Source of the DNA: Cladocopium goreaui
Taxonomy: Eukaryota > Sar > Dinophyceae > Suessiales > Symbiodiniaceae
NCBI GenBank assembly: GCA_947184155.2
Contig: CAMXCT020002033.1
Location: 54,505-118,504, forward strand
Length of the DNA: 64,000 nucleotides
Direction of reading: 5' to 3'
Part shown: positions 37,645-61,621 of the stretch, one piece after another
How positions within the stretch are numbered: the first letter of the stretch is position 1
How the letters are laid out: each line of letters begins with the position of its first letter
The notes under the pieces: model-generated
Seen by the model: only the letters and a program-made list of their open reading frames with translations
Told to the model about the DNA's origin: nothing
Database searches by the model: none
Program-made: the position numbers and the translations under genes

Positions 37645-39205
37645 TTTTTTCCCGATCGGTGAATTGAGGGCCAAACTTCCAGTCTGCAGCTCTGACTGGA
37701 TTCCATTGCACCCAGGTGCGCTGCAAGCCAGGTGCAATTGAAGGTCGAAAATGCTGGCCGGTATTTGCCACTTGTCTTAATAAAACTCTAGTCAAACTTT
37801 GTGGCAACCATGCATGGAGAGATCAAATCTGATGCTGGTCTAGGTCAAGGGCTGAAGCTGTCGATATTCGCGATACCGGCTTCAAGTACTTGCGCTGCAA
37901 GAAAATGCTGGCAGGGCTGGCAATGAGGACGCGCGGATCATCAATCCAGTTTCAAAAAATCATGAGAGGAAATTTTATCAGGATTCACAATATTGATCGG
38001 TTTCATGAACATGCGTTTTTATGAACAATAAAAAATTCGCAGGAAGAACCAATTGCGGTGGTGTCAAATCCCAAAAGCACATGTGACTTGGCATCCGAAA
38101 TTTAGTAGTTAGTTTTCTTCGATTTTCTTCGAAAACCCAGACCCATAGGATCCATGTATGGTATATATGGTAACATTTACCATCAATATACCCCCAATGT
38201 TAGCATATATACCATACATGGATCCTATGGGAGAGTGAATCCTGGTCTTCCCACAATTTCCCAGGCAGTGGCACATCAATTGACTGAGCTCCCAATCCGC
38301 AGCAACTTGCCGGATAATGGAATGACTGCAGCATTTTCCAAAAAAAACAGTGCTCCTTGTCTCTCATAGTTTGCAATTTTTTTGGTGTCGGATTTGAAGC
38401 AAAACAATTTTGGAGATTTAACGTCCAATCCAAGGATACAACCCAAGATTTGAGCATACCATGGCCGATGAAGATATGATGAAGTATGCCAAGCGATGCT
38501 TGGCCATGATGATTCCTTAACCCCCACGAAAATTTACGAAACAACATCATTGATTGATATGTTTTTTTGGGTATCCATTTTACAGTTTCACCCGAAGTTT
38601 TATCTGTGCTGGTTTTGGAGCCCTGAAAAGGCAAAATACATCTGAGGACTGGCAATCTCTTGCCACCGGTTTCGTCTGCAGCGAGGAATTTTGGCCAGAT
38701 CCATTTTACGTCTCAAACATGCCCACAAGGGCAAAAAATCAGGAATTCGCATGATGCAGTTCAAACGGGAAAAACGCCGTGGATAAACACATGCGAGTTG
38801 TGCGAAAAAAAAAGGGCTGAGCAGCAGATTTCGAAACAGGAGAACCGAACTGTCACAGTGGGAAGGTGTGTTTTTTTGTCTACAAAACGGGGAAAAAACA
38901 TATGCATATGGTTCAAGGACCTTGCGCTTTAAGTGAGAGCAAGGGATCAGAGGCAAAAAAAATGTATGTGTTTCAAGTATATCTTGGAGTGACCTCCCCC
39001 ACTAACAGTGGAATAATGGATTTTAATTGCAACTTCCCAGCCAAAAATGCACAACAACCCAGGGACCAAAACCACAAACAATTTGAAAGGCCCAATCTTC
39101 TCAATCCAATTTTTTCTGATGTTGAACCGAAGTATGAAATCACTCTGGGGGCAGCCTACTTGGAACCAGATCAAACCTATTCAGTTGGAGTTTGCAGAGA
39201 TTTTG
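37645..39205. other. Mostly non-coding; weak exon traces
   Basis: About 38582-38630 (FHPKFYLCWFWSPEK) and 38640-38755 (EDWQSLATGFVCSEEFWPDP) may be plus-strand exon relics. Otherwise there are only short frames on both strands. Confidence 0.3.
38142..38231. repeat. Perfect 28-bp inverted repeat with 34-nt loop
   Basis: CCCATAGGATCCATGTATGG plus the following 8 bases (38142-38169) is the exact reverse complement of 38204-38231. The outer part is itself palindromic around GGATCC. Confidence 0.95.
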
Positions 39206-39209
39206 CTGG

Positions 39210-40232
39210 ATAAAATCCCTTTTGGGCAAAGGGAAAGGCAGCAGTGCAGGGACGAGTTTGCTAAGGGACAAATTTTGCTAAGAGACAAATTTTGTTAAGG
39301 GACTAATCTTACTAAAGGGAAAATTTTGCTAAAGGACAATTTTTTCAGTGACAAGTTTTTCTAAGGGACAAGTTGTGCTAAGAGACAAATTTTGCTAAGG
39401 GACTAATCCTACTAAAGGGAAAATTTTTGCTAAGGGACAAAATTTTCAGTGACAATTTTTTTTAAGGGACAAGTTTTTCTAAGAGACAAATTTTGCTAAG
39501 GGACTAATTTTAAAAGGAAAATTTTGCTAAGGGACAATTTTTTCAGTGACAAGTTTTTCTAAGGGACAAGTTGTGCTAAGAGACAAATTTTGCTAAGGGA
39601 CTAATCTTACTGAAGGGAAAATTTTACTAAGGGACAAAATTTTCAGTGACAAGTTTTTCTAAGGAACAAGTTTTTCTAAGAGACAAATTTTGCTAAGGGA
39701 CTAATTTTACTAAAAGGAAAATTTTGCTAAGGGACAATTTTTTCAGTGACAAGTTTTTCTAAGGGACAAGTTGTGCTAAGAGACAAATTTTGCTAAGGGA
39801 CTAATCTTACTAAAGGGAAAATTTTGCTAAGGGACAAAATTTTCAGTGACAAGTTTTTCTAAGGAACAAGTTTTTCTAAGAGACAAATTTTGCTAAGGGA
39901 CTAATTTTACTAAAAGAAAAAAATACTAAGGGACAAAATTTTCAGTGACAATTTAAAGGGACAAGTTGTGCTAAGAAACAAATTTAAAGGGACAAGTTCT
40001 TGCTAAGAAACAAATTTTGCTACGGGACTAATCTTACTAAAGGGAAAATTTTGCTAAGGGACAAAATGTTCAGTGACAAGTTGTTCTAAGGGACAAGTTT
40101 TTCTAAGAGACAAATTTTGCTAAGGGACTAATTTTACTAAAGGGAAAATTTTACTAAGGGACAAAATTTTCAGTGACAAGTTTTTCTAAGGGACAAGTTT
40201 TGCTAAGGGACAAATTTTGCGAAGGGAAAACC
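39210..40232. repeat. 100-bp higher-order satellite built from ~17-bp units
   Basis: CAGTGACAA marks one site per higher-order unit, at 39346, 39447, 39544, 39644, 39744, 39844, 39943, 40071 and 40171. Spacing is about 100 bp, apart from one unit of 128. Each unit is a chain of AAGGGACAAATTTTGCT-like 16-18-bp repeats in fixed variant order (GGGACAAG, GAGACAAA, GGGACTAAT, AAAGGGAAAA, GGGACAAAA). There is no coding capacity. Confidence 0.92.
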
Positions 40233-40500
40233 CAACTTCATACAGACCTAAGCTCTCATTAGCCTTTTCCGGTCAAAGTATATACAAACCCAACTTCTTT
40301 ATGAAGCATTGGGTTCATGCTGTGAAAAACCCAACTTCTTTGTGGGTTGGTCGATTGACAGGGTAGACTGACAAAATGTGCCAACCCAACTTCTCAATGT
40401 GAGACACGGCACCATGTGCTGTGATGTGAGAAAACCGTGGGGCGGAATTACGTCGTGGGTGGCGAATTTACGTCGTGGGTGGCGCCAGAGAGACGATCAT
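40232..40500. repeat. Short scattered AACCCAACTTCT repeats and a local duplication
   Basis: AACCCAACTTC occurs four times (about 40220-40400) at 50-70-bp spacing. GAATTTACGTCGTGGGTGGCG and its near copy form a 22-bp direct duplication at about 40443-40485. Confidence 0.7.
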
Positions 40501-40669
40501 GCTTTTCATAGTCGAAGGGTGCTCGGGGCAGTGAAACAGAAGAGTGAAACATGATCTAAGGTGAAAATGACAGCGAGGCTACAGCACTCAGGGCACCCTC
40601 AGAGTCCGCTCAGAACTGCTTTTCCAATCATCAGACTGCATCAAAGTTGAGTAGGGAGGCACCACTATG

Positions 40670-41071
40670 CTAGTGCTCTTGCAATGCGTCTTCATGGTAT
40701 GGGAGATTGTACTCGTCATCAGTGCGTGGTGATATCTGTGCATTGAGTTCTTCTGATGATGTGCTGGCTCCCCTGGCTGTATGGTGAAGCTGTAGTATGG
40801 CTTTCTGTGCCTGGGTTACTTCGTAACTGGCAGATATAGTACAACTATCCAGGATACAGCCAATCTGACGGAGTTGGCGTATAGTCGCCTCAATGTCATT
40901 GACCCTCTGGGGTGGGATGTTTTGGATGCCTTGGAGCTTCTGTCGGGCTTTCTCTAGAAGTTTGGTGGCATCATCGACTTCACTGGTAGTGACCTGGCAG
41001 AGGGTCAGTTGAGTAATGGACTTTGCAAGTCGATGGACAGCGGCGTCTTTGGTAGGAGTTGGTCGCTCCAT
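40670..41071 (-). CDS. Small coiled-coil protein, 133 aa
   Basis: ATG at 41071 opens MERPTPTKDAAVHRLAKSIT, and the frame stays open to a stop at 40670. It contains long helices with coiled-coil character (DDATKLLEKARQKLQGIQ, VNDIEATIRQLRQIGC) and an acidic end (TDDEYNLPYHEDALQEH). GC content and frame quality support real coding. The open frame at 41523-41850, on the same strand and upstream, could be an earlier exon. The family is unknown. Confidence 0.5.
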   Translation of the reverse strand: MERPTPTKDAAVHRLAKSITQLTLCQVTTSEVDDATKLLEKARQKLQGIQNIPPQRVNDIEATIRQLRQIGCILDSCTISASYEVTQAQKAILQLHHTARGASTSSEELNAQISPRTDDEYNLPYHEDALQEH

Positions 41072-41522
41072 TCCAAAGGACTAAGTCGTCTACAGGTTTA
41101 TTTGTAGACGTAAATCCTCAGAGCATTCAGCTGACACTCACCGTGTTGCAACCATGGTCGAGAAAGGGCATGAGGAGGTGTGGTGCAGATCATTGGGCCG
41201 GTTGAAAGATTGGTTGAGCGCAGGTCAAACGGCGACGGGCACCATGGCTAGATGTACTTTGACATCGCACTACGCTACCATGCAACAATTAAGGTAGAAC
41301 AACACGAACAAAACAACTTAAACACCCTGAAAAGAATTATTATACCCGCCCCCCACCGCCTCCCGTCCCATATTGGCTCCGGCATGCTGCCAGCAAAGGT
41401 AGTTGCAGCGGGCAGTAATCAACCATGAGTACCCCATGGTGACAACGCCGCTCAACCTAGGTCAAGTTACAGGCTGAATGCATGGATGGGAAGCTTGGGT
41501 ACTCTACGTTACCTCGAGTGGC

Positions 41523-41850
41523 TTACTGGAACTGCACGTGTGAGGTGGTGCGAGGTTCTCCACTGCTACTGGCGCTACTGGCTGCGGCAGTGGCGGGGGG
41601 TGGATCACTGCTCTCCGCGGGTCTCATCATTTGGGCGATGAGTGGGTGGGTTTGTTTATCGCGCAGGATCCGCGTCATTTCGCGAGTGAATGCTGCAGGG
41701 TTATCAACTAGTTCCTTCGCTTCCGCTAGTGGCCTGTCAAGGACAATGGCAATGAGCATTTCGCCACCATCTTTGTGGATTATAGTTGGTCGGCCGGCTT
41801 GTACCTCTGCGAGGATTGCCACTGCCTTGTTTTCACACAAAGTGCGTTCC
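41523..41850 (-). CDS. Host exon or gene fragment cut by the YR element
   Basis: From the edge of repeat B2 (41851) the minus strand reads IRERTLCENKAVAILAEVQA, then GRPTIIHKDGGEMLIAIVLD, a helical segment with TREMTRILRDKQTHPLIAQM, and a Pro/Ala/Ser-rich end closing TTSHVQFQ. Its 5' part is missing where B2 begins, so the retroelement may have inserted in or beside this gene. No family is recognised. Confidence 0.4.
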
Positions 41851-42193
41851 CTTATTTTCCCTAACCCAAAAACCGTGGACATCCATCCCACGCGTGCTAA
41901 AAGCAAGATGAAACACACAAACGAAACATCGTCTCTGCAGTGCTCATCACGGTTCGAACCATACACCAAAACGAAACGCACACATATATACATATATATA
42001 AATACATCTCTGTAGATGTATAAATATATAAACCACGCTCTCGCCAAAGCTCCGCAAATAAACCTTCCGTCGCAAAACCCTTTCAGCTGATGAACAACAG
42101 ATGGATCAAACACAGTCATGCAATTTCGGTCAAGGAGATCAGCGCACACTTTTTACTTCTTAGATGATGGGGAATTCACGCCGCCCGCTTTCG
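41851..42193 (-). repeat. Split direct repeat B2 (3' terminus of the YR element)
   Basis: It begins CTTATTTTCCCTAACCC and ends CGCCCGCTTTCG (plus strand), matching 42768-43113 with three indel bases and few substitutions. It contains a TATATACATATATATAAATAC stretch and the palindrome CGGTTCGAACC. Confidence 0.92.
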
Positions 42194-42322
42194 GGGGTAA
42201 GACGAAAATAGAATACGTAAAGTAAGTGGCTGTCCTTACGTATTCGTGAAACAAGAAAGGTATAGATCATGTCAACCAAAGAGAAGTGGTGCTCTCACCA
42301 CAAATGTGCAGGGTGGGTGGGG
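42194..42322. other. Spacer between A2 and B2 with a 10-bp perfect inverted repeat
   Basis: GAATACGTAA (42211-42220) pairs exactly with TTACGTATTC (42236-42245). This 129-bp stretch is not part of either repeat pair. Confidence 0.6.
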
Positions 42323-42767
42323 GGCACAAAAAGATAAAACACGCCACTAAAGAAGTGGACCCACCCTCCCTCCCTTTGGAGGCGCAACTTGAAACGGATA
42401 TGCCACACGCATATAGAATTGAATGTATGGTTGACAGAACACTTTATGTTTCAGATTTCAGATTGTGTGTGTCATCCTTGCGCACTGTGCAACAAAGAAC
42501 ACCCAAGTATGGTTCACAATGTAAAGACATCAGAGTGACATGTTGTAGCTGCAGATTGAAGGTTTCACTTTTGAAACAAAAAACTCACAAGACAAGCAAC
42601 CACTTTTGGTTGAACCCGCAGCTACCACATAATCACCACAACCCAAATGCACAGCGTAGGAACGCGAGGAACGCACGCAGACGCGAGAGGGAGTCCGACT
42701 AGAAGCTGCTCTCAGCTTCTTTTTAGGGAGGGGGAAAATAAGGTTTCATCAGCGCGCTGAGTCGCAA
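42323..42767 (-). repeat. Split direct repeat A2 (internal)
   Basis: Runs from GGCACAAAAAGATAAAACAC to GCGCTGAGTCGCAA(C), matching 50066-50510 nearly base for base. It ends exactly where B1 begins. It carries a GAAGCTGCTCTCAGCTTC hairpin near its right end. Confidence 0.92.
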
Positions 42768-43113
42768 CTTATTTTCCCTAACCCAAAAACCGTGGACATC
42801 CATCCCAACGCGTGCTAAAAGCAAGATGAAACACACAAACGAAACATCGTCTCTGCAGTGCTCATCACGGTTCGAACCATACACAAAAACGAAACGCACA
42901 CATATATACATATATATAAATACATCTCTGTAGATGTATAAATATATATAAACCACGCTCTCGCCAAAGCTCCGCAAATAAACCTTCCGTCGCAAAACCC
43001 TTTCAGCTGATGAACAACAGATGGATCAAACACAGTCATGCAATTTCGGTCAAGGAGATCAGCGCACACTTTTTACTTCTTAGATGATGGGGAATTCACG
43101 CCGCCCGCTTTCG
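42768..43113 (-). repeat. Split direct repeat B1 (internal)
   Basis: Same sequence as 41851-42193. It is directly joined to A2 on one side and to the RNase H end of the RT ORF on the other. Confidence 0.92.
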
Positions 43114-44873
43114 CCACGGCCCCCACCCATGTTAATTGTGGCGTCTTTGCCATCCTTACGAAACTCACGCTTCCTTTGAAGCCATCTCCAGCATCCCTCT
43201 CAGGGATTCTCAAGTCTCTTCTTGAAAGAGGACGATCCATCAACCTTGAAGGGAAGTCAGCCAAATTTGACGGAGAAGGACCTCTGCTAAACCATGGTAA
43301 GACACAGTAGGAGTCAAGGTAAGTGGCAGCAAGTGCGCATATAGCAGTTATGGACAGTGAGCCTGAGTAGCCCCTGATCAAAGAAAAATTTCGAACCCTC
43401 ATTGTCGCTATGCACCAAAAGCGGTGCCTATTTGAGCAGCTGGCACCAAACCATAAGTGACATGGAAACTACCAGAGTCTTCCGTTCTCAATTGCATTCT
43501 GTCTTCCACCTGTCAAAAAAAAAAAGGCGGCCAGGTCTGACACCTCAGCCCAAATTCCAAACCAAGAAAAGCCATGACCATCTCCTGAAATCGAGGCTGC
43601 TCCAAGTCCAGCTCCTTCGACCGGATCAAAATTGGCGTCTGTGAATAGGAACATAGGTTGCAAAAGCTCGCATTGTAATTGCCTGGGTGTTCCCAGGGGT
43701 ACTCTCTCCTTCAGCCGCGCAAGTGAATCCACCAACGTGTCCGCCAGCTCAGCCCTGAAGGGAGAGGTGTAAACATGCTTTGTGATATTCTGTAGTGCAA
43801 CTTTTCCCAACCTTCCAAAGATGAATGAATTGCAGAAGGGCAGGCGGCCCCTTAAGGTCAATGCACTCTTTTTATCCAAGGCACAAACAGCAATAACTTG
43901 ATCAAGTAATTCGATGGTTTCCTTGACACGCTTTTCGGTGAGGGATACCCTGAGCAAGCCATCAGCACATCCAGAAAGGTCAAATTGAACACCTATGGCC
44001 ATAACCAGTCTTGAAAATTCGTCACTCTTGGGCCCTTCTCTATCGATGTCCCAACCAGTATGTCCATCATGAATCACAAGGCAGCTTGAGTGTTGTTGGC
44101 CAAGCCAGGTGTAAAAAAAAAACACAAAGTCATCGAGATCAATCGGGCCAGTCAGCCACCCTTTGCTAACCTCCACTGTGTCTTTTCCCAAAGCTTCTGA
44201 TCCAGGTCATCCGACCCGCTGCTCCTCGTCATGTATCTCAAGGCCCGGTTTGCCTTCTTTGCATTCCGAGCCAGGTCCTTTGTTGTCATTGTGGCAGGCG
44301 GCAACTTCTCAGGCAAAACATTTGAACGCGGGGCTTCTCCCACCCGTGAGAACCCCTTATCCAGGTCCAACGCAAAATCTTAGCCTTCGTACTGCTCTCC
44401 CTGTATGATATGTTTCACCAAACACAAACGATTGCTCTCCAAAATTTTCCTGCAGTCAGCCGGCATCGCTGATTTCAATGCCCATTCGTCCTCTTTTTTA
44501 TTTTTTGAAAAACTTTGGACAACCTCAGCCACTCACCCAACTTGCTGCACCTGTCGTCTATCAACACAAATTCTCACTTTCCGCAACATATACGCAAGCG
44601 TCTTTGACTTCGGTTGGCAGCCCTGAAAAAAAAACATAAATGGATATCCCACTGCAACCGCATAAGATATAAATTCCTCTGGCGTCCACCTAATACCAAA
44701 GACCCAGTCACAGCAATCCCCAGTTATGCTCTCGACATCCAAAACGACTGAAAAAGGGGATACAGCTATCACCAACTTTCGCACACTTTCTCAACCGCAG
44801 TTCCGCGTCACTTGAACTGTTCTGGCCCTGGCCAGTGTCTGGCAGTGATCTCAATGTCTGCGTATGTTCCACT

Positions 44874-44966
44874 GAAAGCTTAAAGCGACGGATCTCACCC
44901 CGTCTGATCTCAAAGCTTAAAGCGACGGATCTCACCCTCAAAGCTTAAAGCGACGGATCTCACCCC
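44874..44966. repeat. Triplicated AAAGCTTAAAGCGACGGATC unit
   Basis: AAAGCTTAAAGCGACGGATC followed by TCACCC appears three times (about 44875, 44912 and 44939) with links of different length, inside the decayed RT ORF. Confidence 0.85.
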
Positions 44967-46111
44967 CTTTTCTGTTGGTCGCTCACAGTATTCTACTCTG
45001 ACAGGGAATAGTGCAGGACTGCTGACACCATGTAACGCTCACGCACTGTAGTAAAACTGAATTGGAAATGTTGAAAGTAACATGACATGGCAAATTGGAA
45101 AGGACAACAGTAGGCAAAAACTCAGGAACAGTGGGAAGCTGAAGCGCTCTGGTGAGTTGTTTGGCAGCTGCGATGGCAAGAAGATGTGAAAGCCTGAGTT
45201 TCTTTGCATATTGCGTAATATGTGGGAGCTTGTATTGACCGCTGTAGTCAAAGCTTTGGCTAGGCATGGTGTGTATTCGGCCTCCAGTGAGGTATCGAAA
45301 ACACCATTGTTGATGTACCGCGGTGCATGCTCATGCTGTCCATCACATAAAATTCAATGACATCACAGCACTGCTATTAGAAGCCAAAAATGTACGCTTC
45401 AAACGTTTCCACCTAACATGCAATTATGCAACTCACAGTACAATGGGTCTATGCATTTCGCAATGTCCTTCCATTACGATGTTTCCCAAAGCAAACTCGT
45501 CAAGGGTTCGCAACCGTCCAAATAATGTCCATGCATGTAGCTGTTTTATGAGCCCGCGCCTGTAGCTATACCGGCGATTGGCGGCCCTCAGTTTCACCGC
45601 ATGCACCCGTAGAGACCAGGTCTCCCTTCAGGGAATTGTGGTGTACGTAAAGGTGGAGGCCCATGTATCTTCCCGCCAACACGTCAGAATCTTGCGCGAG
45701 AAGCCGTGCCACAGGGACCCCAAAAAAAAAGGACCCAGAAGCACTTTCCAGCCAAATCCCACTGCTCCACCAGGTCTTGGTGGTCCTCTTCCGTCACATC
45801 TAGGCAAACAACTTTGACTTTTTGTTTGTTCTCTTTGTGATCAACTCCAAGCTGTCAGGAAAGAAATGCTCCATTGCAAATGTCAGGTTACCCGTACTGC
45901 GAAAAATTCCAAGCAGAAAATTCCTGATTCTCCGATCTGTGGTTTCAAACCGGCATCATGGTTCCACAAGTGGATCCAAAGGTTTCCCAGCACCAGCATA
46001 AGACTTCATGTTGTTTTCCTGCATCCCTTTTGTCTGTCTTTTCACCGCATCATCCACGATGTGGCCATTCGGAACTGGTACACGTTGTGTACCAGGTTCA
46101 AATGGTCACGC

Positions 46112-46156
46112 CCCTCATCAGGGAGGGACATACAACTATATGTCCCTTCCTGATGA
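46112..46156. repeat. Hairpin within the decayed RT ORF
   Basis: CTCATCAGGGAGGGACATA pairs with TATGTCCCTTCCTGATGAG (one mismatch) across a short loop. Confidence 0.85.
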
Positions 46157-46166
46157 GACTGCCCAC

Positions 46167-46685
46167 AAGCGAAGTCTTTGTAGCATCAAGTTGAATCTCC
46201 TTTTCCGGTTTCGAGCCCATGAGCTCCTGCTGACGTGACAAGCATCTGTTGGAGTTGATATAGGGCACCTCATTGCGCTTGATCGTGGCCGCACAAACTG
46301 TAAATTGTTCACTTTCGCGCACAAATGCATGACGGTCTGCGCGCGCAACTGAGCTTGTGTCACCTTTTGGAACACAGGTGCTGGAGCTTGGGCATAGAGC
46401 GAAAGAAGTCGATCAATCCACTTTCTCATAACTTGATAGGAAGCTAAACCCGTCAGATCCATTGCCAAGGTGCGCCTTTGCAGCGCCTGATACAGTGTCA
46501 GGCCCGTGCTGATGTTAATCTCTGAGTGGCTCTGCTGCTCCTTCACAACGAGTGATGTCCTTGTAGCATCAAGTTGAATCTCTTTTTCTGGCTTCGACCC
46601 CATAAGCTCTTGCTGCCTTGATAGGCATCTATTGGGGTTGATGTAGGAGACCTCATCGCGCTCTATCATTGCAGCGCAAAGATCA
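46167..46685 (-). repeat. Diverged internal duplication in the pre-RT region (384-bp offset)
   Basis: TTTGTAGCATCAAGTTGAAT near 46173 matches CTTGTAGCATCAAGTTGAAT near 46557. About 130 bp aligns on, covering the segment that encodes SRQQELMGSKPEKEIQLDAT in both copies. A second, decayed copy of the domain is thus present in tandem. Confidence 0.75.
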
Positions 46686-47715
46686 TAAAGACCATGGGCC
46701 GGTTCCAAAGGGCCCTTGATCTCAAGCTCTCTCAATTGTTCCCTCTGCCTTTCCAGCCGCGCATCCCATTCTGGCTGTGCCATGCGCTTTGGTGCGGAAT
46801 CATCGCCCTTTGCAGTCGCTTTGAAGCTATGCATCATCAAAGTCTGACTCTCGAACAAAATCCTTTTGAACGCCGAAAGTTTAGCTATGGTAGCTGGAGC
46901 TCCTGGACGCAAAGCATTCAGGAATCTGTTCACCTGCTCATCCATCGCCACCGTCCCAGGGCTAGTCACTGCGAAAGCCTGCTTTGCAAATGTAGCCAAG
47001 GAACCTGCTTTTAGGGCGTCTAACCATAATTGAGTAAGCCCTGCGTCCTCAGCCTGCTGAACAAAAGTTGCTTCAGAGTCCAGTATTGACGAGATGGCCA
47101 TTGCGCAAGAGTGGGATTACCCCGCCGCTCCAACAAAAAAAATCTTTTTATAAATAAAGCACAGCTGACTGCTATGAACACTGCAATAGAAAGTTCTAAA
47201 CAAAACACTCATGTCATGTTGCCTGGCGCTTCAGAAAAACACTTCCCAGCTCAAACGCTGGGCACTACTGAACCAAAAACATGCAGCTGCTCTCAACTCA
47301 TGTCGCAGTCCCATGCCGCTTTCGGCATTACCAAATCAAAAACTGATTGCACTCAATCAGATGGCCTTTGCCTTAAGATGCTGACATCTATGTGCTCAAG
47401 TTGGCACTGTTGCCACTTCAATCTCATTAAAAATAAATGTCACCGTTGACAAAGCTATGCATGATGACTCAAATCAGAAATGTGCAGTGAGAATGAAATG
47501 TTCTGCAAAAATGACATGCTGGAGGGACGAAAAACAAGGAAAAGTCACTCGAGCACACCTTTTGCTTCCAGGCGGTGTCGCTCACTTTGCTCTAGAGCAA
47601 TCAGCCCTCTGCCGGTCCAAGGCTTCTATAAGCCCCCCCCCATAGTGGTGATCACCTCACCTTTGAAGCACCAGCCATACCCTGCATTCAAGGCGGAGCA
47701 CCCTGTTCCAACAAC

Positions 47716-50057
47716 TCAAAGTTCTCTTGAACCATGAGCCTGCCACGTGCAGTCTGCTGCTCGATCTCCGAGCACTGTGCACCACATGACTTCTCCTGTT
47801 CCTCCAGCCAGGACCAGGGATATCAACCTTTGCTGGTGGTCCAGCCTCATCGCTATCACTGTCCGACTCACCTGACCGGAGTCCGACAAAGGCAGTTCAC
47901 TAGAGTCATCCTCCACCTGCTCGTCGCCCATCTTTGACTTGCATTCCATTTCCATCGGTGTAGGAAGGTCATATGCATCATCATCATCTGCTGTCTGGCC
48001 ATGGTCAAAAGCAGCCTGCGCAGACGCTGCTGTGGTCCTGTCAACCGTTCCAGCAACATTTTCTGAAATCTTCATCAAGTCCATCAGCCTGCTCATGTGA
48101 GACTCATCAGGGCGGGCACGGACCTCCCTGATGTTTGACAACATGCTGCAATAAAGTTGCAACGGCCGTGCCAACATATCTCGCGAGTAAACTGCCATCG
48201 ATCCTGAGCCCTGAAGTTCATGATATCCCAGCAGTGCGTGGGATGGTTCATCCAGGCCATAAGCACCGCCCCAAACCAGCGTGGTATGCTTGAAACTGTT
48301 TGAAGAGATTGAATTGACCGAGCCGTTTTTGAGGAACCTGTTGATGAGGGCCCCAATCTCCTCCGAAGTGCGTAAGCGGGTACACAGCTCACCACCCTGT
48401 GACGGGGCCCTGCAGATTTCCCCAAAAGGTACATAGTTGATATCCACAATCAGCTCCAGCATAGATTCAATACGAAATTTTGACCAGTCCATTCCTGTGC
48501 TCCCTTGTATTAGCGCCACAAGGGGCATATACCTCTGCTTCTCTGCAAGACTCGTGGCCGTCTTGTGAAACATTGCCTTGGCCCCCACAAGGCCAAAAAG
48601 CTCGCCATTGCACCCTGCATGTTCGACCCAGAACTGATCCACATACCTGGTGTCCGACCACCTTGATATGGACCACGCTGCATAGATCACAGCACGTAAA
48701 AGGTAAACATCTCTCGTGTCCAGTACGGCTTCCATGGCCTTTTCAAGCAAAGCCAATTCCGATGCCTTGAGAGGCCTAGCAGGGTGATAGATGTCCTTTG
48801 CAATCATCAACCTCTGTGCTCTGCATCTCAGTTGGGGGTCCGACAACAGCACCTCTGGAATTGGCAGATCCATCCAGTGTTTACTGAATATGAGCGCCTC
48901 CAATAAAGTGATGTCTTTATACGCAGCTTGCACTTGGTTTCCAGTCTGTCCCATGTACTGTATGCACATCAATCAGATCCATGGATCCCAGTCTCGACCG
49001 TTTGATCGTAGCCATGAAAAATTGAGCAACAACGTCTGAGCCCGTTCGACCGCAGTCCTTGGGGACTTGACTCCAAGCGCACCATGTAGAACCACACTCT
49101 GGGCTCCAATCGAAGCATCTACCTGTTCGGAAAGCACCGCATGATCCAACATGCCAGGGAATCCAAGAATGTCGAAAACCTGCGCCCACTTGTTAATCGC
49201 CTTTTCCCACAATGCAGCTTCATCCAAAAACATGTCTCTGTCAGGCACAACTCTGATTGCAAAAGAATACAACGGCATGGACACTTCCGCATGTACCAGG
49301 CTCCCAGCTGTGGGCCTTCCTGACATACCCAAAGGCTCTGAAGACTCTGCACCGCTTGTCGCAAAAGGCATCAAGTGATCTGGTGGCACTGCAGGTACTA
49401 TTATTTGAAAAAATGATCTCATCATCCCTGTCCAAAAGCTGTTTCATGATTCCTGTTTCCCAAGGCACTCTCAACTCAACGTCACTCATAGATGACATGC
49501 GGGCTTCAAACAATGCTCTATTGGAATCTGATCTGGAAACCGGTTCATCTGAGGTCTCAGCCGCAATCTCACCCTGAAAGTGTTGTGGGAGACTGCAACC
49601 CTCCAAGTCATGGAAACTGAAGTCACGCTGAGAACCCTCCATGCCATGCAAACCAGGTTCATGTTGAAAAGAAACATCTGGATAACCTTGTTCCAAGGTT
49701 GAAGGTGCAAAAGAAAATTCAGTGTAAACAGGGTTTTGCAAATCATGCCCCGCAGTTTCGTCCGAGGCTCGCGCAACAGAATCCGGGACCATTGACAATA
49801 AACTGTCACTTTCAATTTGCCCTCTCTGATTGTCGGTACTCATCCAATCTTTCCAAAATGTCACCGCAGTCCAAATAAATACCGTAGCAAGTCCAGCACA
49901 AAAACTGCAATGAACCAAGATCCAGAAATGCAAAACACCTAACTTCGACATATGCACCTCTTTCAGTAAGATCCCAAATTGACCATGTTGCACACCATAG
50001 TTGATGCTCGCTAACGTAGTCGTATCTCTCGGGGTCCCACTGCAATCTCAACATATC
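47716..50057 (-). pseudogene. Tyrosine recombinase ORF of the YR element, nearly intact
   Basis: An ATG at about 50057, beside A1, opens a frame reading MLRLQWDPERYDYVSEHQLW. After a low-complexity N-terminus, about 49340-48990 encodes a SAM-like core-binding domain (EKAINKWAQVFDILGFPGML, RAQTLLLNFSWLRSN). One in-frame TGA lies at 48973-48975. The catalytic domain follows to the stop at 47716. It has Arg in AAWSISRWSDTRY, Lys in MFHKTAT, a box II of SSNSFKHTTLVW, LLGYH, and the Tyr nucleophile in MAVYSRD. Asn stands where His is usual in the H-x-x-R box, and Lys stands for Arg. I recall Lys as normal for the dinoflagellate relatives. A frameshift lies at the T-run near 49405. The acidic C-terminal tail (DDDDAYDLPTPMEM) has no known role. 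Confidence 0.65.
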
Positions 50058-50065
50058 ACCCCCAT

Positions 50066-50510
50066 GGCACAAAAAGATAAAACACGCCACTAAAGAAGTG
50101 GACCCACCCTCCCTCCCTTTGGAGGCGCAACTTGAAACGGATATGCCACACGCATATAGAATTGAATGTATGGTTGACAGAACACTTTATGTTTCAGATT
50201 TCAGATTGTGTGTGTCATCCTGCGCACTGTGCAACAAAGAACACCCAAGTATGGTTCACAATGTCAAGACATCAGAGTGACATGTTGTAGCTGCAGATTG
50301 AAGGTTTCACTTTTGAAACAAAAAACTCACAAGACAAGCAACCACTTTTGGTTGAACCCGCAGCTACCACATAATCACCACAACCCAAATGCACAGCGCA
50401 GGAACGCGAGGAACGCACGCAGACGCGAGAGGGAGTCCGACTAGAAGCTGCTCTCAGCTTCTTTTTAGGGAAGGGGAAAATAAGGTTTCATCAGCGCGCT
50501 GAGTCGCAAC
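50066..50510 (-). repeat. Split direct repeat A1 (5' terminus of the YR element)
   Basis: Same sequence as 42323-42767. On the minus strand it starts GTTGCGACTCAGCGCGCTG, and the YR frame opens right after it. At 50511 the sequence switches without overlap to Copia integrase-downstream sequence (ATCTCAAAGG). Confidence 0.92.
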
Positions 50511-51258
50511 ATCTCAAAGGTGAGATAGCCCTGATGTTCCTAGCTACAAAACGCATCAACTCAGCTTTGCCATCCACACGAATGAGACCCTGCACAACTG
50601 GACCTCGTTCCAATCCCATGTGAATGAAAGTACACTCAACATTCCTCGTTGAAAGTGGTGAATGCTGCCGAATTGAATCAGGAATCTCTGCCAAAACCTG
50701 AGCACCAAACAAAGTCGAAACTGGTTTGGATAACTTCCTTCCTGAAACCATTTCCAATGGACTTCTGTCTGAACCTCGTGATGTTGAAAAATGGTTGTTG
50801 CACAAAGCCAAATACGTCAAAACGTCAACCAAATTCTCATGTGAAAATGTGACATCCAACCCTTGTGCATTCAGATCAGCCCTTAGTACAGAAAAGGATT
50901 CTTTTAATTCCCTAACTGCTCGCTCAGCCGACCCAATTGATCGATGTTGTTGTGGAGCGGCTCTCCGAATAGCGAACGTATATCGGCCAGTGGAGGTTCC
51001 AATGATCTCTCCCACGGCCCTCTCGCTATCGGTGTGGACATCAATGGAGACTGCCTTCGAAGTCAACCCAAAATGTTGAAGCCATACAGCAATCTGTCTC
51101 CTGGCTGCTTCGACATCTTCTCCAACCACCACATAGCCAATGCACCTCGACATCATCTCGGTTAACACAAGGATCTTCACCGAACCTGGGAGTTCGTCTG
51201 TGACGATCTCTCCTGATGTCTTGAGGAATGCAAAATCGGCCTGAATAGAAACCTCTTT
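50511..51258 (-). mobile_element. Outer Copia element, distal integrase fragment (truncated)
   Basis: This stretch matches the inner element from about 56529 to 57280 with few differences and stays open. It holds the integrase from the first Asp (QADFAF, codon 51235-51237) through HTDSERAV and GSAERAV, to ARNIRAISPLR at the truncation point. It ends at the TCTTT target site at 51254-51258, where the inner element begins. RT, RNase H and the 3' LTR of the outer copy are missing, and A1 of the YR element takes their place. Confidence 0.9.
51254..51258. repeat. Target-site duplication TCTTT (left)
   Basis: TCTTT directly precedes the TG of the left LTR and recurs at 61617-61621 after the CA of the right LTR. 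The uninterrupted sequence in the inner copy (near 57272) has a single CTCTTTCCTGTC. Confidence 0.95.
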
Positions 51259-52091
51259 TGCAGAAGGTACCGCAACCTTCGAAACCCTTGGGCCAGCGTC
51301 CAGGACGTCGTCCTTAACTCACTAGAACCGTCCACGCTACCAAGTCAACCACTCCCAGAGCTCAGCCACTTTTACACACAAGCACAGAAACAAGATGTTT
51401 GCTCATGTCGCTATGGTTCTTGTTGGTGTGTCACGCCTTGACACAAAATGATGCGGAGTCGCCAGTCAGCATCCTTCTGCTAACTTTCACAAAAGCGATC
51501 AAAAACACATGTCCTCACAAAAAGTCTTTACATCAAGACATGGTTTGTTTGTTTAAATAAGTTTGAGTGTTTGAAAAACGTTGAAACATTTCAAGCACCA
51601 AAACATGATTCATGATGTCTCCCTCAGATCTGTTAGCAACTCCAGTTCTGAATGTCTTTCAGAACGTTGCTCTCGCTATCATCATTGAGAGACAAAACAA
51701 ACTAAACTTCTCCGACCAATGTCAAACAAAGTTCCTTCTTCCGAAGTCACAAAATGAATTCTACGATCTTCTCACGATTCCTTCGTGCACTTCTGCGATG
51801 ATTCTGTCGACAAAACTAAAGCAAAGTATATGGAAAATGGTTTGATTTTCCATGTCACTATACAAATTCAAATCCTCAATGTTGTCCGTGCAATCAAAGT
51901 ACTCAAAGAAGACGAAAAGTATATCGTTGTTGGGTTTCGTCATCTCCAATAAAACGTGCAAAACATGAAACGTGCAAATACGATGTCAACCATCACGGTT
52001 GAGCTCATCATCAAGATGAAAACCAAATTCACTTCTTCCAATGCAGAAAATACCAATGGATTCATCTCACCACAGATGTCAAATTTTCACA
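51259..52091 (-). repeat. 3' LTR of the inner Copia, 833 bp
   Basis: Starts TGCAGAAGGTACC and ends TTTTCACA on the plus strand (TG...CA). It aligns to 60786-61616 with about 98 percent identity by eye. Differences include TACACACAAGCACAGAAACA against TACACAAGCACAAACCAACG, and several single bases. Confidence 0.95.
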
Positions 52092-52100
52092 CCCCCTTTT
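52092..52100 (-). promoter_or_regulatory. Polypurine tract (plus-strand primer)
   Basis: On the minus strand AAAAGGGGG lies directly before the TGTGAAAA start of the 3' LTR, as expected for a PPT. Confidence 0.85.
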
Positions 52101-52267
52101 GAGATGAACTCCATTCCATAGGTATACGCTGTAACCCATCCAGACTTCAGCACGTATCGCTAAAGCTTAGCAGGTCAATACATATAATACGAATTGTCCC
52201 GTTGTCCACCCTCCAATGAACAACCAGCTCATAGTCTTTCCTCGTCTTTGCACCAATGAAGATATTC

Positions 52268-52849
52268 TCAATCACCCAACTGCCTCTGCACTGAAGTTCC
52301 AGTGAAGCAACCCTTTGGCTTTCCAACCTTTCCAGAGTCCTCCACAACCTTGCATGCGCAGAGAAAAGAATACCAATCCTTTGCAATTGGACTTGTACTC
52401 TTGTTTCCCAGGTGACCCATACTCCATTTGCAATATCCTGCCATCTCCTCATCGACATATACCTCACGGTATGTCTTGCCTTCATTGGCAAACTTTCCAA
52501 ACGCAAACTTCGTTCTGCTCCAATCTCGAAAACTCATGCCTTCAGGTACCAAATCAGCAGTAAGCTGATCAAGGACCTTGTCGGCAATCCCAGGAAAGAT
52601 TGGGATAGGCATGACAGGCAACTGTGTATTCAAAGGTTCACCTGCCGAAGAAATCACATCGAATTCATCATCATCCAGAGCCTCACGAAGTCGCTTGCTT
52701 CCGTCTGTCATTGCTCCTTGACTCTCCAAAGGAGTCAAAACACTGGATCCGGCTGCATAGCCTGACCCTGAATTCTCACTATGCCACTTCTTCTGAAGAA
52801 GACCAAGCAAAGCCTTCTCATCTGCATCTGTCCATCCAGACTTGGCCAT
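52268..52849 (-). CDS. Third ORF of the inner Copia, 193 aa, ExoX-C-like motif
   Basis: ATG at 52849 opens MAKSGWTDADEKALLGLLQK, a myb-like or helical start, and the frame is intact to 52268. After a Ser/Gly and acidic linker comes PVMPIPIFPGIADKVLD, then FRDWSRTKFAFGKFANEGKT, YREVYVDEEMAGYCKWSMGH, and a C-terminal basic tail. The pattern F-G-K-x-x-x-x-G-K-T-Y-x-E-V...Y-x-x-W resembles the small C-terminal domain of ExoX-like nucleases as I know it. No exonuclease core precedes it, so any role would be nucleic-acid binding or packaging. It lies between pol and the 3' LTR, where env or accessory ORFs sit in other LTR elements. A start about 340 bp from the pol stop implies separate expression. 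Confidence 0.6.
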   Translation of the reverse strand: MAKSGWTDADEKALLGLLQKKWHSENSGSGYAAGSSVLTPLESQGAMTDGSKRLREALDDDEFDVISSAGEPLNTQLPVMPIPIFPGIADKVLDQLTADLVPEGMSFRDWSRTKFAFGKFANEGKTYREVYVDEEMAGYCKWSMGHLGNKSTSPIAKDWYSFLCACKVVEDSGKVGKPKGCFTGTSVQRQLGD

Positions 52850-53189
52850 GGCTGCAAACCAAACCGCGTCCGGTAGTGAAAAAGTATTAGACCGTGGCTA
52901 AGCTCTTAGGAGCAATCAACCTAGAACGTGAAACGAAGTGTCGAACCGCCATCACAGTCGTGATAGGATCAGTGGCCTTTCAGATTGTTCTGCGCTGCGC
53001 ACACACACTGCATCTTACAGCATCGCGCAACAAACTCTGCACAAAATGAAACATGGTGAAAACTCCTGTTTGTCTTTGGCAACGTTTGTTTGAAAACAAC
53101 GTGCAAACGGAAATGAAACGGAATGAAACGAAACGTGGATCCAACTTCTGTCTCTCTCTCTGTCACAGGGCCCCCTTTTAAACGCAAAT

Positions 53190-56100
53190 TCAACTCTTCT
53201 TCTTCGAAGCATGTTTGACCGCAATCAAAATGTATCTTGCCAACTTTCGGTTGTAAAACGCTGTTTCAGTATAGTTGATTTGATAAAGTTCTGCATGAGT
53301 CTGACATGTGCATGTTGAAAGTTTGGAGTGAAGATTTAATGCAAACCAGGCTGAATTGGAAACAAACTTCAATGTCTTTCCAATCGGAATACCATCCTTG
53401 TTCTGGCGTCCAGTCTTGCACAACCTCACCAAAGCCTCATGCCTCATGTCAAAACTCTGCAAAAGATTCACTGTCTCAGGTCGGGACCAAATGGTATTTC
53501 GTTCTGGAAGCTCAAACGAACATGAGTCTGCATGTTTGAAGTAACCACCAATCGCGTTGATGATCTCATCCCATTCCTGGTCCTTCTCAGTGACTGATTC
53601 CGGATTGAAATTGCGAAGCGGACTTCCACTTCCACAAGGAGTCGATGCATGAATATGCACCCAAGGTGGACATGACGAATTCTTCCACTGTCGAATGCAA
53701 ACAGCTACACGACTCAACGTTCCAGAACTCTGCACCTTAGCAACTACACCAATGTATGGGACCTTCGAAACCTCACAGACCTTTCTCAAGTTCGAATGTT
53801 CCGAACAACACAGTTCCACAATCGCAATTGAAGAACCCTGAGTCAACACTTGCTGCAACACACTCAGCTCACGAAGCTCTGCCAACTCAGCTGTCAAACC
53901 ATCTGGAACCACAATCCCAAGAGCATATCGATGCTTATAGAAAGCTTTGGCACTCAAACATTTAGTGAAAAGATCTGCTGGATTTTCAACACCACTCCTG
54001 TGTCTCAATTTCAACAAACCCTCTCTCATCTGCTCTCGTAACCAATGCAATCTTATTTCAATGTGTCGTGAACGCCGTGGCACATCCATGGATCTCACAA
54101 GTTGCAAGGCGGAGCTTGAATCGCTCTCCAGCCAAATCACAACTTCTTCTGGCTCATCGATCTCATGAAGTGCAAACAGAAGACGGTGAACCAGTCTTCC
54201 AAACGCAACACTTTCTTGACACACTGATTGCAAACCATAGAGTTCTGCCTCACATGAACTCAAGCTCAAAGCTTGCTGTTGTCGGCTCAGGGACCTCACC
54301 AAAGACCTCTCAAAGAAAACAGCTCCACCGCTAACACCTTTGCGGTTGTTGAAACGGTACGGCGCATGTGAAGCGTCGCTGAAAGAATGAAGATGGACTG
54401 ATCTCAGTTGAGTATCGTCAACCTGACTCATGATGGTCTCATCTCTGCTCGGTAAACACAAGCATGCATGCATGTCAACATACAAGAATCTCAAAACTGC
54501 TTTCAATGCTTGTTCAGTTCCGTGCGTCGGTTTCGCTTGCTGTGTCCCAAGAACAGACATCCATGTCTTCAAGTCATGACGCACCTGTGACAACCAAAGC
54601 AATTTTCCCAACGCCTTTCTGAAGCGTGAGTATGCTTCATCTGACAAAGGTTTCTGAAAGTTGCTATCCGTGAGTGTTTTCTCAAGATGTCCTGAGATGT
54701 CAGGCACATTCTCCGACCCACGGGTAACGCCATAATCCAGAAACGTAGAGTCAAGATAATGTGGATCGACACCCAGAGTGATCTCAGAGGAATCTCTTTC
54801 TCTTCTGATGACACGACCAATAAAGGTCAGGGATCCTCCCTCTTCTCCGATCTCTCCAGTTGTCTTCACAGGCACTACAGACGACAAAGTTGCAACCACA
54901 TGTTCTTCAGCTTCCTTAGTGGTCGACAACAACAGAATGTCATCAACATACACCACACACAAACGAAACCCAATTTCATGACCATCTTTCACAATCTGTC
55001 CACCATACACACATGGTTCCAACGAATCAGACCAAAGGCCTACATGTTCAACCGTAAATGTCAGAAGCTGTAACCATGCCAGTGAAGCATCACGTAACCC
55101 GTTCAATGCCTTTTCAAGCAAATAGTAGGTCGCTTCACCTGATGGAAAGCTAATCGACAACGGCATTTTCAAGACAACATGTACGCCAGTTCCCAATGGA
55201 CTATGCATGAAGGCATGACTCACGTCCAACGCACGCAAAAGCATCTTCCGTGTCGCTGCCATCGCAAGTACCAAATGAACACTTTCAATCGAAGGGGTAG
55301 GACTGCTAAATCCTAAAGATCTAGCTGAGGAGCCACGATTGAAGTCCTTCGCAACAATCCTGGTTCGAACCCTCTCACTGCTTTTGTAAGCTGCAACCCA
55401 CCTCGACTGGATCAAACGAAGGTTCGGAACAGCCTTCTTCATGTCGTCCAGTTCTGACTGGGTGATGATGCGGCCAGTCTTGCAGTGTTCCAAGTTCCTA
55501 ACCTCCTCTTGCATACCTTTGAAACCTTGTTCCAAATCAAGCTCTTGCAAACTCTGGTCATCTATGATACTGTCCGGTTTCCAAACCAAGACATCCTGAC
55601 CTCCAAGACGCATCTTCACAAAATCATGCTCATTGCCTCGATTGAAACAAACAGAATCAAGAGAACCAGAAAACATTTCTGGAGATGTTGCCGGAGCAAA
55701 AGACGCTGGACCTTCAAGTGTACCTAAACTCGCAACCAACACAGGCTCACCACTACCAACCCAAAACCAATCAAAATCCATGTTTGTTTGAAGCAGTTCC
55801 TCAGAATCTTCACGGATCTCTCTTTCCAACTGTTCTCGGTCGGTTTCAGCTTTTCTTTTAAACCTTCTAGTGTGCTCAACCTGTGTTTCCGGCTGTCGCC
55901 GAGCGGACTCAGGTGTTGGTACCAATTCTTCATCATCGACCTCTTCTACTGGCACCTCAACCTGTGGTACAACAACATGGCTCTCCTGAGAGAGTGCAGG
56001 TTCAACACGTCTTTCCTTTCTCCGTTGTTCCTCAAACTCAGCAAAACGCTTCCTACATTCCTTATTGTGCCTAATACCAGGTGCTTCCATGCCACTCTCA

Positions 56101-58625
56101 CATGCTGGACATCGACGAGTCGGTTCAAAACATGATACGTCAGGTGAAGTTCTTTCAGAACTCTCAGGACTACCAATAGCTACATCTGCAGTATCTGCTG
56201 GTGACGTAGGAGATGGAGTGACAGAAACTCGAGACGGCTCTGCTGGAACTTCCTGTGGAGTCACGACAACGTTCGATCTTGCTAACGGCACTGCTGGCGC
56301 CAAACGCAACTCACCAGATTTCTTCTTCACACTGCTGGACTCTGGCAAGACAAGTTTGGGCTGTGAAGGTGCCGGCAAACTCTGACCTTTCAATCTTCGC
56401 AACTCTTCAGGAGGTAGCTGACTCATATCAGCTGGTGCAGTTCCACTGTCATTCACAATTTGGGGTCTACTACCTACAGTCCCAGTGTCAAATTGAGTCA
56501 AAACACCCTGTCCCGAATTCAAATCCCATCTCAAAGGTGAAATAGCCCTGATGTTCCTAGCTACAAAACGCATCAACTCAGCTTTGCCATCCACCCGAAT
56601 GAGACCCTGCACAACTGGACCTCGTTCCAATCCCATGTGAATGAAAGTACACTCCACATTTCTTATTGAAAGTGGTGAATGCTGCCGAATTGAATCAGGA
56701 ATTTCTGCCAAAACCTGAGCACCAAACAAAGTCGAAACTGGTTTGGATAACTTCCTTCCTGAAACCATTTCCAATGGACTTCTGTCTGAACCTCGTGATG
56801 TTGAAAAATGGTTGTTGCACAAAGCCAAATACGTCAAAACGTCAACCAAATTCTCATGTGAAAATGTGACATCCAACCCTTGTGCATTCAGATCAGCCCT
56901 TAGTACAGAAAAGGATTCCTTTAATTCCCTCACTGCTCGCTCAGCCGACCCAATTGATCGATGTTGTTGTGGCGCGGCTCTCCTAATAGCGAACGTGTAT
57001 CGGCCAGTAGAGGATCCAATGATCTCTCCCACTGCCCTCTCGCTATCGGTGTGGACGTCAATGGAGACTGCCTTCGAAGTCAACCCAAAATGTTGAAGCC
57101 ATACAACAATCTGTCTCCTGGCTGCTTCGACATCTTCTCCAACCACCACATAGCCAATGCACCTCGACATCATCTCGGTTAACACAAGGATCTTCACCGA
57201 ACCTGGGAGTTCGTCTGTGACGATCTCTCCTGATGTCTTGAGGAATGCAAAATTGGCCTGAATAGAAACCTCTTTCCTGTCACCTTTGTCTCTTCTGTGC
57301 TGAAAAACGGAACGACCCTTGGCACATTCCAAACAGTTCGGATTGAACGGAATATGTCCCTGTCTCCGGTGACGTGCCAGTTCATTGTCGTCTCCTCCAG
57401 ACACAGCTGCGACAGAAAAGTCATGAGTGTTACTCACAGTCAAGTCAGACCTGTATGCACTACTACTACCAACATCGGGATACAAACGAACCCAAGGACA
57501 ATTGGCAAAATAAGCAACATCGAGACAATGCATTCCAAGCTTTTCATGGAACAAATCAAAACCTTTTGGACCTTGTGTGAATCTCCATCCCGAATCTGCC
57601 AATGAAGTGATTGACAAAATGTTGTGCCGGATGGAACCCACCAAAACATTCAAACGTGCTTTCTTCCAACACCAATCATCACCTGATGTGCCTGAAATGT
57701 GCATCTGTACTCCAATCTCAGCAGTGCCTGACATGTTGACTGAGGATCCATTGGCAGCTTTGTAACTACCTAATCCCTCACTGTCCTGCAGCACTGACCT
57801 GAAGGCTGACAAGTTCGATTCAGCCAAAACACTTGTGGATGCACCAGAGTCAAGAAGCCACCAAGAAGCATCGGTGTTGTCAGCGACCTGTGAAAGCAAA
57901 GGTCGTAAAAACTTCAAGTAAGGTTCAATCTGCTGTTCAACTGAAACCTCGCTGTGGTCGTCAAACCAATCATGTGCACGCACCAAAACGACTTTCATCG
58001 GTACAGTGGCACACAAGTCTCGGCTGGGGTCATTAACAAAACATGTTTCCAAGTTGGAACTATCACCAAGTCCAACCTCATCTCCACACTTCAAACCACA
58101 AAACCATGGCTCACGAGTACAGCTGTCGCAACCTCTTGCCAGCACACAACCCATGTCAGCCGCTTCAACTTCCTCTGACTCATGAGTACAGCTGTCGCAA
58201 CCTTTTGCCAGCACACAACCCGTGTCAGCCAGTTCACTTCTCACTACTTCTGACTCACAAGTACAGCTGTCGCAACTCCTTGCCAGCACACAACCTGTGT
58301 CAGTCAGCTCATCTTTCTCTTCTGACTCATGAGTACAGCTGTCGCAACTCCTTGCCAGCACACAACCCATGTCAGCCAGTTCACTTTCCAATCCTTCTGA
58401 CTCACGAGTACAGCTGTCGCAACCTCTTGCCAGCACACAACCCGTGTCAGCCAGTTCATTTTCTTTTGACTCACGAGTACAGCTGTCGCAACTCTTTGCC
58501 AGCACACAACCCGTGTCAGCCAACTCACTTTCAAAGTCTTTGCAATCAACCACAAGCCTATTCTCGGTTTCCATGTCAGCAACCTCATTGCTCATGCACA
58601 AACCTAAGACCTCCAGTGGTTTCAC
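53190..58625 (-). CDS. pol: Pol polyprotein of the inner Copia, ~1811 codons
   Basis: Domains by approximate residue: six Cys-rich repeats (30-175, C-V-L-A-x-x-C-D-S-C core), aspartic protease (DSGA, about 257), integrase zinc finger (HRRQGH...CLEC, 415-445), integrase core (first position Asn 458 in QANFAF, Asp in HTDSERAV, Glu in GSAERAV), RT (LDVSHAF; VVYVDDI near 1226), RNase H (SDASHA near 1417, SCEAELYG, LESDSSSA, ADLFTKCL) and a ~220-residue extension with VELCCSEHSNLRKVC and TPCGSGSPLRNF. PR-IN-RT-RH order is diagnostic of Copia. The frame opens without an ATG upstream of the first domain and overlaps the gag end by 41 bp. An extra A in the coding strand at 58588-58589 separates the frames. 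The protein needs a -1/+1 shift or is dead. The frame itself has no stops. Confidence 0.93.
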   Translation of the reverse strand: MKPLEVLGLCMSNEVADMETENRLVVDCKDFESELADTGCVLAKSCDSCTRESKENELADTGCVLARGCDSCTRESEGLESELADMGCVLARSCDSCTHESEEKDELTDTGCVLARSCDSCTCESEVVRSELADTGCVLAKGCDSCTHESEEVEAADMGCVLARGCDSCTREPWFCGLKCGDEVGLGDSSNLETCFVNDPSRDLCATVPMKVVLVRAHDWFDDHSEVSVEQQIEPYLKFLRPLLSQVADNTDASWWLLDSGASTSVLAESNLSAFRSVLQDSEGLGSYKAANGSSVNMSGTAEIGVQMHISGTSGDDWCWKKARLNVLVGSIRHNILSITSLADSGWRFTQGPKGFDLFHEKLGMHCLDVAYFANCPWVRLYPDVGSSSAYRSDLTVSNTHDFSVAAVSGGDDNELARHRRQGHIPFNPNCLECAKGRSVFQHRRDKGDRKEVSIQANFAFLKTSGEIVTDELPGSVKILVLTEMMSRCIGYVVVGEDVEAARRQIVVWLQHFGLTSKAVSIDVHTDSERAVGEIIGSSTGRYTFAIRRAAPQQHRSIGSAERAVRELKESFSVLRADLNAQGLDVTFSHENLVDVLTYLALCNNHFSTSRGSDRSPLEMVSGRKLSKPVSTLFGAQVLAEIPDSIRQHSPLSIRNVECTFIHMGLERGPVVQGLIRVDGKAELMRFVARNIRAISPLRWDLNSGQGVLTQFDTGTVGSRPQIVNDSGTAPADMSQLPPEELRRLKGQSLPAPSQPKLVLPESSSVKKKSGELRLAPAVPLARSNVVVTPQEVPAEPSRVSVTPSPTSPADTADVAIGSPESSERTSPDVSCFEPTRRCPACESGMEAPGIRHNKECRKRFAEFEEQRRKERRVEPALSQESHVVVPQVEVPVEEVDDEELVPTPESARRQPETQVEHTRRFKRKAETDREQLEREIREDSEELLQTNMDFDWFWVGSGEPVLVASLGTLEGPASFAPATSPEMFSGSLDSVCFNRGNEHDFVKMRLGGQDVLVWKPDSIIDDQSLQELDLEQGFKGMQEEVRNLEHCKTGRIITQSELDDMKKAVPNLRLIQSRWVAAYKSSERVRTRIVAKDFNRGSSARSLGFSSPTPSIESVHLVLAMAATRKMLLRALDVSHAFMHSPLGTGVHVVLKMPLSISFPSGEATYYLLEKALNGLRDASLAWLQLLTFTVEHVGLWSDSLEPCVYGGQIVKDGHEIGFRLCVVYVDDILLLSTTKEAEEHVVATLSSVVPVKTTGEIGEEGGSLTFIGRVIRRERDSSEITLGVDPHYLDSTFLDYGVTRGSENVPDISGHLEKTLTDSNFQKPLSDEAYSRFRKALGKLLWLSQVRHDLKTWMSVLGTQQAKPTHGTEQALKAVLRFLYVDMHACLCLPSRDETIMSQVDDTQLRSVHLHSFSDASHAPYRFNNRKGVSGGAVFFERSLVRSLSRQQQALSLSSCEAELYGLQSVCQESVAFGRLVHRLLFALHEIDEPEEVVIWLESDSSSALQLVRSMDVPRRSRHIEIRLHWLREQMREGLLKLRHRSGVENPADLFTKCLSAKAFYKHRYALGIVVPDGLTAELAELRELSVLQQVLTQGSSIAIVELCCSEHSNLRKVCEVSKVPYIGVVAKVQSSGTLSRVAVCIRQWKNSSCPPWVHIHASTPCGSGSPLRNFNPESVTEKDQEWDEIINAIGGYFKHADSCSFELPERNTIWSRPETVNLLQSFDMRHEALVRLCKTGRQNKDGIPIGKTLKFVSNSAWFALNLHSKLSTCTCQTHAELYQINYTETAFYNRKLARYILIAVKHASKKKS

Positions 58626-60747: not shown

Positions 60748-60769
60748 TCCTACTTACGCACAGCAAGCA

Positions 60770-61616: not shown

Positions 61617-61621
61617 TCTTT
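61617..61621. repeat. Target-site duplication TCTTT (right)
   Basis: Perfect match to 51254-51258. The outer integrase frame resumes here with CCTGTCACCTTTG. Confidence 0.95.

Follow-up and report, generated by a model that had tools for sequence, protein, structure and literature searches.

Organisation of the element

The window analysed here, a 64,000-nt stretch of the dinoflagellate Cladocopium goreaui (contig CAMXCT020002033.1), carries on its minus strand a tyrosine recombinase (YR) retrotransposon of 8,659 bp (nt 41,852–50,510), a disabled copy that was probably still mobilised in that state. It is organised as A1 - YR - Gag - Pol remnant - B1|A2 - 129-bp spacer - B2. The 5' end at nt 50,510 (GTTGCG...) and the 3' end at nt 41,852 (...AAATAA) were set by comparing copies and the empty sites of relatives; base 41,851 differs among copies and was thus assigned to the target. 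An initial annotation, made from the sequence alone, had described two pairs of split direct repeats, a gapless B1/A2 junction and a spacer with a perfect inverted repeat, and alignment bears out all three. The A repeats, A1 at the 5' end (nt 50,066–50,510) and A2 (nt 42,323–42,768), are identical at 441 of 446 columns (42,323–42,767 against 50,066–50,510), and B1 (nt 42,769–43,113) and B2 at the 3' end (nt 41,852–42,193) at 342 of 346 (41,851–42,193 against 42,768–43,113), i.e., about 99% in both cases, with three substitutions between A1 and A2 and one between B1 and B2. Among 100 shuffled queries derived from A and B, none matched the window over more than 36 bp. Both pairs are direct, and nt 39,000–53,000 contain no inverted pair reaching 40 nt. 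B1 adjoins A2 with no gap, and the spacer between A2 and B2 (nt 42,194–42,322) contains the 10-bp inverted repeat (nt 42,211–42,220 and 42,236–42,245). An imperfect dyad (nt 42,721–42,789; 22-nt arms, 82% complementary and 25 nt apart) spans the B1|A2 junction and is a candidate recombination site.

The first gene (nt 47,719–50,047, minus strand) specifies the YR, with one frame break near 49.41 kb. The predicted structure of the protein matches Cre-type recombinases. Pfam returned no recombinase family for it and, among 22 relatives, gave only Phage_int_SAM_1 in three (best E 0.087). Sequence searches of the PDB returned nothing relevant, and searches of viral and prokaryote collections yielded no relatives. 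The active-site R, K and Y are kept in the window copy and both histidines are replaced, by N at codon 48,298–48,300 (H in 41 of 46 aligned rows) and by Y at codon 48,223–48,225 (H in 43 of 46). A lysine stands in place of the second arginine (an HxxK box) in 45 of the 46 rows, the remaining one having a gap. Overall, the window YR departs at 27 of 108 conserved columns (20 of 99 if the shifted tail is excluded). All 27 also depart in the database protein P0001, 26 of them to the identical residue, while among the 44 other relatives the departing fraction is at most 0.02 in 31, 0.03–0.14 in 12 and 0.29 in P0035. Selection for an open frame in the dead gene was considered and rejected, as a simulation was not significant: the probability of no stop arising was 0.03 to 0.08 for all 52 inferred amino-acid changes and rises when fewer are assumed, so the still-open frame is not beyond chance.

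The Gag-like open reading frame (ORF; nt 46,136–47,101, minus strand) has an internal duplication (nt 46,165–46,297 and 46,548–46,680), is rearranged beyond about residue 252 and has lost its CCCH finger. Its alignable part departs at nine of 101 conserved columns, seven of them in common with the database protein P0077, which carries the same rearranged tail. A model of the protein (predicted local distance difference test score, pLDDT, 74.5) matched no PDB structure convincingly (best E 0.95), so that the protein is called Gag on account of its position and of the CCCH finger present in relatives. Pol is represented by two minus-strand remnants. One is a decayed methyltransferase-like N-terminal domain (nt 45,043–45,954), recognised by tblastn with the domain of a relative (L018), the longer matches being interrupted by stops. 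The other is an RT/RNase H remnant (RT, reverse transcriptase; nt 43,073–44,379), the frame of which stops within B1 (stop at nt 43,073). About 444 bp of the RT core, judged against the relative L009, are missing at nt 44,134–44,139, and the RNase H frame is lost. The copy is therefore disabled, with the RT core, the Gag zinc finger and both YR histidines gone, a state that the initial annotation had overlooked. Its recombinase-first order holds on the minus strand; its 'Gag-like/RT/RNase H' holds only for remnants, since the Gag ORF is rearranged and the RT core deleted.

Relatives in the same genome

The A repeat alone gave at least 46 matches in the 1.17-Gb assembly (40 of 192 candidates were scored), many of them paired 6.5–8.3 kb apart. 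Twenty stretches were chosen around places of the 46 matches and, together with the window, make up the 21 stretches compared here. Copies with the same A/B layout and ORF order, for which the initial annotation had proposed a search, are present: the order YR, Gag, RT/RNase H is seen in 11 of the 21 stretches (L009, L010, L011, L013 to L019 and the window), and a twelfth element with this order, the C3062 copy, is divided between L020 and L021, which also contain a nested element. The three genes of one element are not found together in L012 or in any of L020 to L028, L022 to L028 being incomplete as fetched. Pieces of RT or Gag situated beyond the A/B frame do not enter the count; they occur in L015 (both sides), L023 (beyond B2) and L026, L027 and L028 (before A1). 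In none of the 21 stretches was the gene order reversed within a single element, and in none did the YR lie in a neighbouring element of its own or A and B move separately. B1 adjoins A2 in 16 of the 17 stretches having a 3' end, and a spacer resembling that of the window occurs in 14 of these 17, the other three having a gap of similar length. These results support the assignment, made in the initial annotation, to a YR retrotransposon with split direct repeats of the PAT/Ngaro type and the YR placed 5' of the RT.

Six of the 21 stretches (L009, L013 to L016 and L018) retain every YR, RT and RNase H residue that was checked, which makes these copies possible helpers, while RT catalytic residues are broken or missing in L010, L011, L017 and L022. 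The C3062 copy has the same RT breakpoint as the window copy, and the RT motif A and B residues are absent from both. The RNase H frame is lost in the window copy and not in the C3062 copy. A 4.6-kb derivative occurs in L012 (349–4,987, C3525), with an open YR frame and almost all of Gag and Pol deleted (34 residues of Gag are retained); its repeats are identical at 444 of 445 columns (A1/A2) and 327 of 345 (B1/B2).

A more distant element is nested in the Gag gene of the C3062 copy (9,259 bp, L020 4,338 to L021 3,795). It has the order YR, Gag, Pol, yet its YR is only about 25% and its Gag 31% identical to those of the main family. Its B repeats (368 bp) are 100% identical, a 56-bp A-like repeat does not adjoin B1, and a 9-bp direct repeat, AAGAGATTC, is found at the insertion, in contrast to the 0-bp sites of the main family. 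The 3' end of the C3062 copy (L021 7,274–9,457) reads B-A-S-B-A-S-B (S, spacer), i.e., it has one extra A-spacer-B unit of 920 bp, and both B|A junctions are exact.

Insertion sites and flanks

L019 is inserted in a Copia-like family, which is present twice in the window with the same site, and the C3062 copy is inserted in a repeat that occurs twice in empty form in L024, its exact empty site lying in a repeat on C646. At the empty sites of both targets the flanks join with 0 bp duplicated or lost. In the 11 copies with both flanks available, eight share no flank bases, two share one and one shares two, and A is found at position −2 in 14 of 16 5' flanks.

The two flanks of the window copy do not match each other: the 5' flank is Copia-like and the 3' flank is another sequence, a 57-bp relative of which lies in L027 in a target-like context (...GGAAGAAT|GGGAACG). 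Reading the flanks as an in-frame join, i.e., as one uninterrupted Copia-like gene, fails because the copy of the Copia-like sequence at 56.5 kb goes on in another way and because the native surroundings of the 3'-flank relative are different. The mismatch reflects either recombination between two insertions or misassembly. The window copy may be a chimera, created in assembly from two near-identical insertions; this is a serious possibility, though less likely than not, to which the Copia-like 5' flank and the different 3' flank with its target-like L027 relative both point, whereas true recombination between two copies would give the same picture. A chimera would concern this locus only and is compatible with the mobilisation of a disabled line discussed below.

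Probable mobilisation of a disabled line

We consider it probable that the copy in the window is a non-autonomous member of a family of YR retrotransposons, mobilised after it had been disabled, with the RT and most likely the YR supplied in trans. Fuller members of the family would be organised as A1 - YR - Gag - Pol (methyltransferase-like domain, RT, RNase H) - B1|A2 - spacer - B2. Their RNA would be reverse transcribed, with the internal B1|A2 used to rebuild the joined ends, and the YR would then recombine the B|A junction of a circular intermediate into a target tending to have A at −2, with no target duplication. In the subfamily of the window copy, both YR histidines and the RT core of Pol appear to have been lost before the last transpositions, hence the proposal that RT and most likely YR came from other copies. 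On the YR branch of this subfamily, 52 amino-acid changes were inferred over 344 columns, as against three substitutions between A1 and A2 and one between B1 and B2, which argues that the decay predates the insertion. The sister copy C3062 lies at a different target and has the RT deletion and YR changes in common with the window copy, so that at least one transposition from a disabled template is indicated, most likely with help in trans.

Several points weigh against this interpretation. Only two copies of the disabled subfamily (window and C3062) were found in the assembly, a lower bound given the candidates scored; the sizes of the clusters P0001, P0061 and P0077 (43, 44 and 21 members) are not copy numbers, as the genome itself shows two. 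The subfamily is not alone in its strong decay at conserved YR columns (P0035 reaches 0.29), and the loss of catalysis through N and Y at the histidine positions is presumed from motif position. RVT_1 scored 20.6 and 21.8 bits in the two Pol frames tested from the same genome, below the Pfam cut-off of 29.6. The empty sites shown are those of relatives and not of the window copy, whose flanks do not belong together, and gene conversion could keep the A and B repeats alike.

Spread of the disabled subfamily by segmental duplication or ectopic recombination, rather than by retrotransposition in trans, would agree with the finding of just two copies and with the mismatched window flanks, as expected from recombination between two copies; we regard it as unlikely, since an exact empty site for the C3062 copy exists in the repeat on C646 and the near-identity of A1/A2 and B1/B2 in the window copy is unexpected for a duplicated old element. 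Two unrelated adjacent transposons, a crypton-like YR element and an RT element, might be suggested by the distinct ORFs of YR and RT and by an order unlike that of Ngaro, but this is highly implausible in view of the YR-Gag-RT order within one A/B frame in 11 stretches, Gag and YR protein matches with neighbouring gene names (s3838 g5/g6 and s3870 g6/g7, the same genome being assumed), five contigs of exactly equal size in the YR and Gag match lists, and L012, where the A/B frame and the start of Gag are kept, as after an internal deletion. The layout and order common to relatives, the duplication-free empty sites and the Cre-type model together indicate that the YR belongs to the element.

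Comparison with known YR elements

In PAT and DIRS1 elements the usual order has the YR after the RT. The ORF order, put forward as a novelty in the initial annotation, does not stand as one, since elements of the form A-coding-B-A-B are reported from Symbiodinium, with two structures that differ in Pol domain order and in YR/Pol order (PMC5890265); a YR-first order alone is therefore not new. SymbioDIRS-Dnmt3, from the same account, resembles the present family in its repeats and in having the YR in its own ORF; it likewise combines a methyltransferase (here methyltransferase-like) with RT in one Pol ORF, and its YR and Pol ORFs occur in shuffled order in the two structures. Its methyltransferase was found via PF00145, whereas the Pol domain here has no Pfam match, the comparison being one with a published description only.

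According to PMC6681497, VIPER and TATE of kinetoplastids have A1 ... B1 A2 B2 repeats and ORFs for a Gag-like protein, YR and RT/RNase H. Gag comes first there, whereas here the YR precedes Gag and the fuller copies have an extra N-terminal Pol domain. The same text describes SIRE, a short non-autonomous VIPER relative spanning A2 and B2, which are separated by about 30 bp peculiar to SIRE. Ngaro, as outlined in PMC8547959, has the layout A1-[ORFs]-B1A2B2, with YR replacing the usual integrase, and solo AB repeats are known. Its ORFs run Gag-like, RT/RNase H, YR, in contrast to YR, Gag, RT/RNase H here, and its YR box is His-X-X-Arg (HxxR), in contrast to HxxK. In PMC4157794, Ngaro is given as lacking a methyltransferase domain; the Pol described here has methyltransferase-like stretches, without a Pfam or PDB sequence match. 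According to PMC4157794 and PMC3266345, PAT has split direct repeats, as does the window element, DIRS1-like elements integrate without target duplication, as at the two 0-bp empty sites, and both PAT and DIRS1 have a putative methyltransferase domain. DIRS1 differs in its inverted repeats, both pairs being direct here. The combination of YR and RT/RNase H in one element, characteristic of the order DIRS in the wide sense, is present in the relatives, the window retaining only remnants of RT/RNase H. A literature search by title gave no closer description of the family among the matches listed.

Less expected than the gene order are the HxxK box, the Pol domain and the extra A-spacer-B unit of the C3062 copy. 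HxxK instead of HxxR persists in the nested relative despite its low YR identity. The Pol N-terminal domain of L018 (3,646–4,665, minus strand) has methyltransferase-like motifs and no Pfam or PDB sequence match; a search for PF00145 (the Pfam DNA methyltransferase family) was negative both for the L018 Pol (E up to 1) and for all eight domain rows (E up to 10), and the first methyltransferase-like motif is missing from three of the eight rows. We tentatively propose, while thinking it doubtful, a YR-first lineage with its own HxxK box, an undescribed methyltransferase-like Pol domain, A-spacer-B acting as a recombinase cassette, and dead elements that persist by means of the recombinase and RT encoded by fuller copies. 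As part of this proposal, the C3062 3' end looks as if site-specific recombination had inserted the 920-bp unit at the junction. Little is understood of YR retrotransposons, and the present family offers exact junctions with empty sites and a candidate recombination site, as well as one genome in which doubly disabled copies exist next to fuller ones, so that trans-mobilisation of YR elements and the part played by the internal B1|A2 junction become directly testable.

Neighbouring sequences

To the right of the element, nt 53,193–64,000 hold a Copia-like element whose open frame runs to about 1,810 aa and which includes a tandem duplication (about 4.34 kb, from nt 57,268 and from nt 61,614). 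Its name derives from a match to RVT_2 in the open frame at nt 53,196–58,628 (E 3.5e-18). The flank of the YR element (nt 50,511–52,091) is a rearranged piece of this Copia-like element and itself gave no Pfam match. On the other side, nt 39,131–40,327 contain a repeat array with 17-bp spacing plus larger steps.
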